Source: Chloroflexota bacterium
Lineage (GTDB): Bacteria > Chloroflexota > Limnocylindria > P2-11E
Direction: 5' to 3'
Length of the DNA stretch: 40,354 nucleotides
Assembly: GCA_005889075.1 (NCBI GenBank)
Contig: VBDQ01000081.1
Span: 1-40,354, forward strand
Shown here: positions 13,968 to 37,640 of the stretch, piece after piece
Layout of the letters: the number at the start of each line of letters is the position of its first letter
Position numbering within the stretch: the stretch's first letter is position 1
Program-made: the position numbers and the translations under genes
Notes under the pieces: model-generated
Told to the model about the DNA's origin: nothing
What the model saw: only the letters and a program-made list of their open reading frames with translations
The model's database searches: none

Positions 13968-14050
13968 GGGCGTGTGGCGGAACGGTAGACGCGTCAGATT
14001 TAGGGTCTGATGCTCGAAAGAGCGTGAGGGTTCGAGTCCCTCCTCGCCCA
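13968..14050 (+). tRNA. tRNA-Leu (anticodon TAG)
   Basis: Class II tRNA: D-loop GGCGGAACGGTAGACGCG, anticodon arm CAGATTTAGGGTCTG, long variable arm TGCTCGAAAGAGCGT, T-arm GAGGGTTCGAGTCCCTC, 3' acceptor strand CTCGCCC. One T-T mismatch in the acceptor stem. Confidence 0.92.
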
Positions 14051-14054
14051 CCGT

Positions 14055-34594: not shown

Positions 34595-37321
34595 TTAGCT
34601 ACATCCGGTCGTGTCTCCGCAGTTCTCGCACTTGTGGCAGGTGCCACTCCTGACGGTCAGCCAGCCGCACCGCGGGCACGGTGGCGCGTCGGGTGTCGAA
34701 TTGAGCCGCCGATACGTCGATGGCGCGGTCAGATCGCTCGCGGCCGCCCGCGCGATCGCGTGGCCGTTGCCGTTCGTCGGCGCCGGCTCCGGCGAAGCGA
34801 GAGGAAGGACGCGGTCGATGAGCTCCTGTTGGGCTGGCGGATCGGCGACCTCGGTCGTCCGGACCAGGCCGAGCGCGGCGCGATCTTGCTCGGACAGGAA
34901 ACGATTCCCCAGCCAGCGGAAGACGTAGTCGACGATCGACTTCGCGAACCCGATCTCGGAATTGCCTGTCCATCCCGATGGCTCGAAGCGCATGTGGCCG
35001 AACTTCTCGACGAGGTGCGCGAGCGGGACGCCGTACTGGAAGAGCAGCGACACGCTCGTCGCGAACGCGTCCATCATCCCGGAGAGCGTCGACCCTTCCT
35101 TCGCCATCGTGACGAACAGCTCGCCGGGCGTTCCGTCCTCGAAAAGACCGACGGTGATGTATCCCTCGTGGCCTTCGATCGAGAACTTGTGCGTGAGCGA
35201 CGCGCGCGTGTCCGCGAGCCGCCGGCGCTGGGGCCGCGTGACTTCCACGACCCGTTCGACGACGCGCTCGACCGTCGTCTCGGTCGCCTTCGCGTTGATG
35301 TTCTTGTCGGTCGTCGAGAGAGGTTGTGTCTTCTTCGACCCGTCGCGATAGATCGCGATCGACTTGAGCCCGTGCTTCCAGGCCTGGACGTAGGCGTTCA
35401 TGACGTCGTCAACCGTCGCGGTCTCCGGCAGATTGACGGTCTTGGAGATCGCGCCAGAGAGGAACGGCTGGACCGCACCCATCATCTTGATGTGTCCCAT
35501 GTACTCGATCGACCGCGCGCCGTTGGCCGGCTTGAACGCGCAATCGAAGACCGCAAGGTGCTCATCGCGCAAGCCAGGAGCACCCTCGATCGTGCCCCGC
35601 TCCTCGACGTAGGTGGTGATCGTGCCTGCCTCGGTCTCCGTGTACCCGAGTCGTCGCAGCGCGGCCGGAACGGTCCCGTTGACGAGCTTCAGCATCCCGC
35701 CGCCCACGAGCTTCTTGTACTTCACGAGCGCGATGTCCGGCTCGACGCCGGTCGTGTCGCAATCCATCATGAAGCTGATCGTGCCGGTCTCGTCGCGGAT
35801 CCGGTAGGCGAACTGGCGATGCATGTAGATGACGCGGTCGTGCGGATCCTTGTTCCGCGCGTACGCGTCGTACGGACCCAAGGTCGCCGCGATCCTCGCT
35901 GACTGCGCGTAGGCCTCTCCGGTGAGGAGTGCCGTGACGGCGGCGGCGTAGCCCCTCCCCTCGTCGGAGTCGTACGGCACGCCGCGGTACATGAGCAAGG
36001 CACCGAGGTTCGCGTAGCCGATGCCGAGCTCGCGGTTCGCGCGCGCATTGGTCGTGATCTGGTCCGTCGGGTAGTCGGCGTACCCGACCAGGATCTCCTG
36101 TGCCGTGATGAGTGTGCGCACCGCGTTTACGAAGCTACCGGTGTCGAAGTCGCCGGCCCGATCGACGAAGCGCATGAGGTTGAGGCTCGCGAGGTTGCAC
36201 GCGGTGTTGTCGAGGCTCACGAATTCCGAGCAGGGATTCGTCGCGTAGTTGCGGTCGGTGTTCGCTCGGGTGTGCCACTCGTTGCACGCGGTGTCGAACT
36301 GCATGCCCGGGTCGCCGCATTGCCACGTCGCCTCCGCGATCTCGCGCAGAAGATCGTGTGCGCTGACCGTCTCGAGCACGCGGCCATCCGTGCGCGCGGT
36401 GAGGTCCCAGGATTCTTCCGCGACCGCTTTCCGCATGAACTCGTCCGTTACCCGGACCGAGTTGTTGGCGTTCTGGAACTGGATCGAGTGCCAGGCCTCG
36501 CCGTTCAGGCTCATGTCGTAGCCCATCTCGCCGAGGGCCCAGGCCTTCTTCTCTTCTTTCGCCTTGCACCAGATGAACTCGCGGACATCGGGGTGATCGG
36601 CGTTCAGCACGACCATCTTGGCCGCCCGACGTGTCGTGCCACCGGACTTGATCGATCCCGCGACACTGTCGGCCCCGCGCATGAATGACACCGGGCCGGA
36701 GGCGTAGCCGCCGCCGGACAGCTGCTCCTTTTGAGAGCGGATCTTGGAGACGTTCACACCGGAACCGGAGCCGCCCTTGAAGATGACGCCTTCGTTGCTG
36801 AACCAGTCGAGGATCGAGCGCATCTCGTCCTCGACGGAGAGGATGAAACACGCGCTCGGCTGTTGAGGCACGCCTGGGACGCCGATGTTGAACCACACCG
36901 GAGAGTTGAACGAGGCGTACTGCCGCACCATCAGGTACTTGAGCTCGTCGGAAAACGCGTCGCGGTCGGCCTCGCTGGCGAAGTAACCCGCCCCGAGACC
37001 CGCGCGCGCGATGGTGTCGACGACGCGGTCGACCATCTGCTTGACGCTCGACTCGCGCGCGGGCGTGCCGAGCTTGCCGCGGAAGTACTTGGAGGCAACC
37101 ACGTTCGTAGCCGTCTGCGACCAGAACTTAGGCACCTCGACTCCGCTCTGGGCGAAGACGTTGCCGCCCTCGCCGGGGATGACCGCCTCCCGAACTTCCC
37201 ACTCGATCTCGTCGTAGGGGTGGATCCCCGGGTGCGTGAAGTGCCGCTTCACGCGAAGGCCCTGCCGTGCCGAAGCGTCGGCGTGTGGGACGGATTCCTG
37301 CCCGATCTCTGCGATTGCCAC
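34595..37321 (-). CDS. nrdJ: Class II (adenosylcobalamin-dependent) ribonucleoside-diphosphate reductase NrdJ, apparently with an internal in-frame loss
   Basis: YASFNSPVWFNIG, ACFILSVEDEM, GSGSGVNVSKIRS, NPCSEF...LDNTACNLASLNL, TGTISFMMDCDTTGVEPDIALVKYKKLVGGG, C-terminal CPRCGWLTVRSGTCHKCENCGDTTGC. Confidence 0.95.
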   Translation of the reverse strand: MAIAEIGQESVPHADASARQGLRVKRHFTHPGIHPYDEIEWEVREAVIPGEGGNVFAQSGVEVPKFWSQTATNVVASKYFRGKLGTPARESSVKQMVDRVVDTIARAGLGAGYFASEADRDAFSDELKYLMVRQYASFNSPVWFNIGVPGVPQQPSACFILSVEDEMRSILDWFSNEGVIFKGGSGSGVNVSKIRSQKEQLSGGGYASGPVSFMRGADSVAGSIKSGGTTRRAAKMVVLNADHPDVREFIWCKAKEEKKAWALGEMGYDMSLNGEAWHSIQFQNANNSVRVTDEFMRKAVAEESWDLTARTDGRVLETVSAHDLLREIAEATWQCGDPGMQFDTACNEWHTRANTDRNYATNPCSEFVSLDNTACNLASLNLMRFVDRAGDFDTGSFVNAVRTLITAQEILVGYADYPTDQITTNARANRELGIGYANLGALLMYRGVPYDSDEGRGYAAAVTALLTGEAYAQSARIAATLGPYDAYARNKDPHDRVIYMHRQFAYRIRDETGTISFMMDCDTTGVEPDIALVKYKKLVGGGMLKLVNGTVPAALRRLGYTETEAGTITTYVEERGTIEGAPGLRDEHLAVFDCAFKPANGARSIEYMGHIKMMGAVQPFLSGAISKTVNLPETATVDDVMNAYVQAWKHGLKSIAIYRDGSKKTQPLSTTDKNINAKATETTVERVVERVVEVTRPQRRRLADTRASLTHKFSIEGHEGYITVGLFEDGTPGELFVTMAKEGSTLSGMMDAFATSVSLLFQYGVPLAHLVEKFGHMRFEPSGWTGNSEIGFAKSIVDYVFRWLGNRFLSEQDRAALGLVRTTEVADPPAQQELIDRVLPLASPEPAPTNGNGHAIARAAASDLTAPSTYRRLNSTPDAPPCPRCGWLTVRSGTCHKCENCGDTTGCS

Positions 37322-37331
37322 TTCGTGCCCC

Positions 37332-37430
37332 CTAGAAAGCGCTGATGGAGCCGGCCGTCATGACCGCCCGTAGAAGAAGGAGGAGAAGCCTCGCTGCGCG
37401 AGTGACAGAAGCCGACGGCCGACGGGTCAT
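37332..37430 (-). CDS. Candidate 32-aa leader uORF upstream of nrdJ
   Basis: ATG at 37430 preceded by GGAGG 5 nt upstream; MTRRPSASVTRAARLLLLLLRAVMTAGSISAF-stop (37332); stop lies 10 nt before the nrdJ GTG. Confidence 0.4.
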   Translation of the reverse strand: MTRRPSASVTRAARLLLLLLRAVMTAGSISAF

Positions 37431-37460
37431 ATCACCCTCCTTCTCTCTCACACACTGCCG

Positions 37461-37507
37461 CCACTACATCTTGGCTCGACCACCCTTCTCGACCCAACAT
37501 CTAGTCA
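37461..37507 (-). promoter_or_regulatory. Two NrdR-box-like sites
   Basis: Minus-strand TGACTAGATGTTGGGT (37507-37492) and AGCCAAGATGTAGTGG (37476-37461), 31 bp apart, each about 11 of 16 to consensus acaCwAtATaTwGtgt. Confidence 0.5.
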
Positions 37508-37521
37508 ACGCGCAGAGCCGG

Positions 37522-37550
37522 ACCGTATGCCGCCGGGGGCGCGATGTCAA
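37522..37550 (-). promoter_or_regulatory. Sigma70-like promoter of nrdJ
   Basis: TTGACA - 17 nt - TACGGT on the minus strand, just upstream of the NrdR-like boxes. Confidence 0.5.
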
Positions 37551-37640
37551 GAACTAGGGGTCATCACTCTTCCTGGCCCCATATCTGGTAGCAGGATGCA
37601 TGCCGCGACGCACCGCATCCAGAACGGGTCGCGCCGAACG

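Follow-up and report, generated by a model that had tools for sequence, protein, structure and literature searches.

A conserved leader ORF with a leucine-codon run upstream of nrdJ in uncultured soil Chloroflexota: a candidate translational link between protein synthesis and ribonucleotide reductase

Introduction

Ribonucleotide reductase (RNR) sets the dNTP supply, and the known bacterial controls of this enzyme (NrdR, B12 riboswitches and allostery) read nucleotides or the cofactor. Leucine is neither a substrate nor a product of NrdJ, the adenosylcobalamin-dependent class II enzyme. Bacterial leader genes that lie 10-13 bp before a gene, most markedly those with UAG stops, have been proposed to act as reinitiation leaders, in which a ribosome stalled at regulatory codons would make reinitiation less frequent (Korolev et al., 2016, PMC4833913). 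The same survey found no general codon pattern and contained too few Chloroflexi to judge this phylum (PMC4833913). In attenuation leaders, codon bias tunes the sensitivity to amino acid supply, with the leu leaders as the textbook case (PMC1183508). The boxes in the NrdR-DNA structure carry a conserved C and G 9 apart and are spaced by 31 nt (PMC9110341).

Here, we describe a short leader ORF (uORF) upstream of nrdJ in a window of 40,354 nucleotides, the whole stretch of DNA that was analyzed (contig VBDQ01000081.1 of the Chloroflexota assembly GCA_005889075.1). In our reading, which we consider rather probable, it is a conserved leader-peptide gene that is translationally coupled to nrdJ by termination-reinitiation, with a run of Leu codons as metering element and under the control of NrdR. 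The initial annotation of the window had called such a layout not usually reported for class II RNR genes. Among the open-access papers searched, we found none that deals with both a uORF and nrdJ and, judged by titles and abstracts, no bacterial RNR leader peptide.

Results

Layout of the leader ORF

The downstream gene was identified by profile searches, in which NrdJ scored above the cut-offs of NF005122 (1330.9 bits) and TIGR02504 NrdJ_Z (527.5 bits). It is the sole RNR large subunit found in the source assembly, which is 87% complete. The uORF precedes it on the same strand (Table 1). Its ATG at 37430 follows the GGAGG motif with a 5-nt spacer, and its TAG at 37334-37332 is followed by 10 nt and the nrdJ GTG at 37321, the G of the TAG being the first G of the nrdJ Shine-Dalgarno sequence (SD) GGGGG. 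The elements on which the initial annotation was built, namely a 32-aa uORF with a strong SD at 5-nt spacing, six consecutive Leu codons and a stop 10 nt before the nrdJ start with the nrdJ SD adjoining it, can all be read at this place on the minus strand. No Pfam family was found for the leader peptide. The same window also carries a tRNA-Leu gene (anticodon tag; 13968-14052, plus strand).

Table 1. Features of the nrdJ leader region in the window.
Feature	Position	Strand	Basis or remark
nrdJ, adenosylcobalamin-dependent (class II) ribonucleotide reductase, GTG start	34595..37321	minus	profile matches
TAGGGGG, uORF stop merging into the nrdJ SD	37328..37334	minus	columns invariant in the genus
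uORF, 32 aa MTRRPSASVTRAARLLLLLLRAVMTAGSISAF, stop TAG	37332..37430	minus	sequence; counterpart in 18/18 g1, g3 and g7 genomes with nrdJ
Six-codon Leu run CTT CTC CTC CTT CTT CTA	37371..37388	minus	only uORF part with codon-position constraint
CTCGC-GCA-GCGAG inverted repeat	37390..37402	minus	present here, not conserved; outside the explanation
CGGCCGTC (37421-37414) / GACGGCCG (37359-37352) pairing	span 37352..37421	minus	not conserved; outside the explanation
uORF SD GGAGG	37436..37440	minus	AGGAGGG columns invariant in the genus alignment; 16S-tail duplex stronger than that of the nrdJ SD
NrdR box 2, CAAGATGTAG, 31 nt from box 1	37464..37473	minus	predicted; 31-nt spacing in most of the family
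NrdR box 1, CTAGATGTTG	37495..37504	minus	predicted; pattern search and family comparison
Probable -10 element TACGGT, 17-nt spacer	37522..37527	minus	inferred; below the strict promoter scan threshold
-35 element TTGACA	37545..37550	minus	TTGAC kept in 24/25 family leaders; the other contig is too short

Conservation and origin

Leaders were collected by searching 81 genomes of the genus, family, order and class with the NrdJ N-terminus. Three genera, here called g1 (the source genus, 11 genomes), g3 (2 genomes) and g7 (5 genomes with nrdJ), make up a set of 18 genomes from uncultured soil Chloroflexota. An SD-led leader ORF of 31-38 codons is present upstream of nrdJ in every one of them (11/11, 2/2 and 5/5), starting with ATG in 17 cases and with GTG in one. 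All 18 carry a run of 3-6 consecutive Leu codons, preceded by 13-17 and followed by 11-17 codons, with the frame kept throughout. The distance from the uORF stop to the nrdJ start is 10-13 nt in 17 genomes and 1 nt in the remaining one (G012). In this genome (locus L014), TCG stands where its congener G018 has the TAG, and a TGA 1 base before the nrdJ ATG closes the uORF, still near nrdJ. The genus leader alignment is marked by invariant islands, which comprise AGGAGGG, ATGACC, most of the Leu run and TAGGGGG. As frame and SD are both kept in every one of the 18 genomes, across three genera, the relatives bear out the initial annotation on this point and, judged by this conservation, the uORF is confirmed as a real element beyond chance.

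The uORF is absent from the sister genera g5, g6 and g8 and from the few other-family members examined. On a tree of trimmed NrdJ sequences, its bearers form one group (support 98/93), pointing to a single origin of the uORF, at a site between nrdJ and a promoter/NrdR-box pair shared across the family. In a sample of 78 nrdJ loci from many phyla, a uORF with a Leu run was found in only two, both of this family; among the remaining 76 loci of other lineages, an SD-led ORF ending near nrdJ occurs in two (unrelated) and a Leu run in none.

Trimming was applied to the tree because inteins distort the tree of untrimmed NrdJ. Several relatives have nrdJ genes with apparent inteins at two sites, one at about NrdJ residue 363 (L004, L007, L021, L022 and L026) and one at about residue 157 (L024 and L027). 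Pfam Intein_splicing and LAGLIDADG_3 match L004 and L024, with splicing matches just below or below the curated cut-off. For the other five, alignment breaks with long open frames suggest putative inteins.

Promoter and predicted NrdR operator

Both the only conserved promoter and the NrdR boxes precede the uORF start at 37430, and from this position the mRNA is predicted to start near 37515 and to include the uORF. A transcription start downstream of 37430, named in the initial annotation as a refutation of the leader, is thus not what the sequence predicts. The pair of CTAGATGTTG and CAAGATGTAG, with C and G nine apart and a 31-nt spacing, matches the boxes of the NrdR-DNA structure and represents a predicted NrdR operator whose two sites are about three helix turns apart. 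A search pattern built on these and the relatives' boxes gave one match in the window and 0 in 100 shuffles, and nrdR scored over the cut-off in 10 of the 11 genus genomes. Another NrdR-like pair, weaker than the first, consists of CCAGATATGG and CTAGTTCTTG at a spacing of 31 nt (37548-37588, minus strand), with CTAGTTCTTG overlapping the -35 element; most genus members have similar pairs, 30-31 nt apart.

In relatives that lack the uORF, TTGACA and the NrdR boxes are located about 120 and 80 nt before nrdJ. The corresponding distances are about 230 and 185 nt in the bearers. In the bearers, promoter and boxes are thus displaced upstream by about one uORF length, with the uORF inserted between operator and gene as an extra stretch of roughly 105 nt.

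Codon choice and coding constraint

Parsimony changes at codon positions 1/2/3, with the inferred changes treated as independent, amount to 125/115/118 outside the Leu run and 12/9/23 inside it (Fisher p=0.018); for g1 alone, the changes inside the run are 4/1/8 (p=0.066). A third-position excess, the kind of synonymous signal to which the initial annotation had pointed, is therefore confined to the run, with the rest being even. Outside the run, the uORF is without visible coding constraint. Within the genus, pairwise dN/dS has a median of about 0.6. Since all 18 genomes have a further reading frame free of stops, openness alone is little proof of coding. Constraint found only in the run therefore leaves the peptide free to vary except for its Leu residues, as a leader with regulatory codons and boundaries would be.

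The run avoids CTG and is enriched in CTT: its 92 Leu codons comprise 45 CTT, 32 CTC, 10 CTA, 3 TTA, 2 TTG and no CTG, compared to 9 CTC, 9 CTG and 1 CTT among the 19 Leu codons elsewhere in the same uORFs. For the genes of the window, the shares are CTC 57%, CTG 23%, CTT 11%, CTA 3% and TTA 0.5%, which are rough figures from about 28 putative genes picked from the window ORFs by codon-position GC, with some wrong frames included. Within the run, CTA is replaced by TTA in three related genomes and CTT and CTC interchange, all of these changes being synonymous. Sensing of Leu-tRNA by such a run is plausible.

Leucine elsewhere in the genus

In the genus, no second conserved Leu-run leader was detected and only the one at nrdJ recurs; other matches to the Leu-run pattern are single and mostly contain CTG, and reversed-pattern controls gave similar or higher numbers. 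Leu metering would thus be confined to nrdJ, and this is either what is most interesting about the system or an argument for a role of the run in RNA pairing. Among the loci examined, there was also no Leu-run leader before leuA or ilvB. This counts against sensing, because such leaders might be expected if Leu supply were sensed. Leu auxotrophy as a reason for the run was not supported, leuC being present in 11 of 11 genus genomes. A strong bacterial LeuA match (about 490 bits) was obtained only in two of these 11 (G000 and G001); the others may have a divergent LeuA.

Proposed mechanism

We infer that the uORF is translated, that it is coupled to nrdJ, as its layout suggests, and that the run responds to Leu-tRNA in the direction given here. 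NrdR would repress transcription from a promoter that precedes the uORF by about 85-120 nt. Ribosomes would load at the strong uORF SD and translate about 32 codons, including the 3-6 consecutive Leu codons, to terminate at the UAG merged with the nrdJ SD, 10-13 nt before the nrdJ start, where the terminating ribosome (or its 30S subunit) would reinitiate on nrdJ. The CTG-avoiding Leu run would serve as the metering element: scarce charged tRNA-Leu would mean less transit and less reinitiation, and NrdJ synthesis would fall along with protein-synthesis capacity.

The layout fits a coupled leader, as the SD-led ORF ends within about 15 nt of the gene and distance and order are kept in 18 of 18 genomes. 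Of the two options raised by the initial annotation, attenuation or translational coupling, the coupling layout is conserved, whereas transcription attenuation finds no terminator-like site. The mean SD/16S-tail duplex energy is -11.2 kcal/mol for the uORF and -9.0 kcal/mol for nrdJ, with the uORF SD being stronger in most genomes, which is consistent with ribosomes loading mainly at the uORF. A weakened nrdJ SD in the uORF clade was rejected: compared to relatives without the uORF, it is not significantly weaker (p=0.67), and independent initiation at nrdJ is therefore possible. A uORF serving as NrdJ N-terminus via stop readthrough was discarded as a general explanation, as the 10-13 nt gap does not give one frame in all genomes.

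RNA structure and alternative explanations

Two structures had been named in the initial annotation, a CTCGC-GCA-GCGAG hairpin and a pairing between CGGCCGTC and GACGGCCG. Both exist in this sequence, but each is complete only here; in the genus, only 39% and 50% of the cells are paired, respectively, and both were rejected as conserved structures. A GGGTC/GACCC mini-hairpin at about 37422-37440 (minus strand; genus alignment columns 98-115), whose loop contains or adjoins the uORF start codon, is paired in 94.5% of the cells in the genus. Apart from a chance-level miRNA, Rfam gave no match in the leader, and a B12 riboswitch was found neither in the window, with the gathering threshold as cut-off, nor in the leader when E values up to 5 were allowed.

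The genus consensus fold looks different: here, the Leu run is divided between the two SDs, its 5' half pairing with that of the uORF and its 3' half with that of nrdJ, and these pairs are kept in 94-100% of the cells. This fold gives rise to the first alternative, which we judge unlikely but worth weighing, that the CTY tract acts as RNA. The uORF SD would be bound by the 5' half of the tract (AGAAGGAG/CUCCUUCU) and the nrdJ SD by its 3' half, ribosomes translating the uORF would melt the pairing, and the Leu residues would be a by-product. In most g1 and g7 genomes, not in g3, the duplex of the uORF SD and the run is indeed stronger than the mean of codon-permuted runs, and the folding model leaves hardly any of the uORF SD unpaired in the free RNA (mean unpaired 0.07). 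Against this reading, no covariation beyond shuffles was detected for the run/SD pairs in the genus alignment, the columns of which hardly vary. The nrdJ-SD/run duplex shows no consistent excess and, in most cases, does not exceed the strength obtained with random Leu codons; its helix is invariant in the genus, which speaks neither for nor against sequestration of the nrdJ SD. Furthermore, a translational attenuator of the erm type would release the SD of its gene upon stalling in the leader, but in a thermodynamic model a ribosome placed on the run leaves the nrdJ SD no more accessible (mean accessibility 0.33 free and 0.31 stalled), and in g3 the pyrimidine tract is interrupted by TTG and CTA and Leu is nonetheless kept. 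According to these models, a pairing role of the tract with the uORF's own SD is possible and one for the nrdJ SD is unsupported.

Nascent-peptide arrest, in which an RLLLLLLR-type peptide would stall the ribosome on a ligand (e.g. cobalamin or a nucleotide) or a translation inhibitor, appears improbable to us. Leu identity is the sole conserved feature of the peptide, and other bacterial uORFs sense stress via stalling (PMC12121999). However, no C-terminal motif is common to the three genera, the run length varies from 3 to 6, and a CTG-free run is unexpected if the peptide alone mattered.

Transcription attenuation of the classical, ribosome-mediated kind known from leu or trp leaders, which relies on a terminator and an antiterminator hairpin, is in our view very improbable. 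The uORF does have a run of one regulatory codon family (3-6 Leu) with a codon bias resembling that of leu leaders (PMC1183508), but no terminator-like site was found before nrdJ, and with the stop 10-13 nt from nrdJ there is no room for a terminator outside the ribosome (following the argument of PMC4833913). In addition, the downstream gene encodes a ribonucleotide reductase, of which Leu is not a product. A functionless chance ORF is just as hard to credit: GC-rich sequence is often open, as illustrated by the two frames open in all 18 genomes, but SD, start, run and stop position are kept in these genomes despite divergent remaining sequence, and the combination of such an ORF with a Leu run is missing from all 76 loci of other lineages. 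Least credible of all is a Rho gate, in which the C-rich, G-poor Leu tract would be a Rho-loading site exposed when the uORF is untranslated; G occurs in only 2 of the 92 run codons, both in g3, but the C-over-G excess over 78 nt around the run is unexceptional in three of four genomes, with 5-11% of window positions as high.

Discussion

Taken one step further, the leader would be leucyl-tRNA-sensitive and couple RNR synthesis to translation capacity, as a codon meter on a Leu-unrelated gene that is placed atop NrdR control. We put this more specific reading forward tentatively, at somewhat less than even confidence. If true, a codon-metering leader would provide a direct translational link from the status of protein synthesis to DNA precursor synthesis, and Leu-run leaders would extend beyond the genes of branched-chain amino acids. 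For annotators, the uORF is a conserved small ORF that is likely missed by standard gene callers. Regulatory leader ORFs are of a known kind; to our knowledge, the nrdJ target, the pathway-unrelated homopolymeric run and the combination with NrdR are new.

The closest relatives by layout are the proposed reinitiation leaders of Korolev et al. (2016), which share with the nrdJ uORF a short ORF, a stop (here mostly UAG) 10-13 nt before the gene and the proposed feeding of ribosomes to it; in contrast to these, the nrdJ uORF has a conserved homopolymeric run of Leu codons (PMC4833913). Consecutive Leu codons of biased choice in a short leader ORF are also the hallmark of leuL, the leader of the enteric leu operon (PMC1183508), whereas the nrdJ leader is without terminator and antiterminator, has an RNR gene downstream and uses CTT and CTC as main codons rather than CUA. 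Similarly, the uORF of Corynebacterium ilvB-II is conserved, varies in length in multiples of three, is rich in branched-chain codons and occurs once per genome, but it precedes branched-chain biosynthesis and a terminator, neither of which applies to the nrdJ uORF (PMC10272879).

In Mycobacterium tuberculosis, the gene downstream of uORF-ppe2 depends on uORF translation by termination-reinitiation, which is only proposed for nrdJ; the nrdJ leader differs in having no B12 riboswitch match and in its non-overlapping stop and start (PMC11260477). Finally, the NrdR regulon of RNR genes shows two boxes with C and G 9 apart, 31 nt apart and near the promoter, as found here, and compared to this regulon the uORF would form an extra layer between the predicted NrdR operator and nrdJ (PMC9110341).
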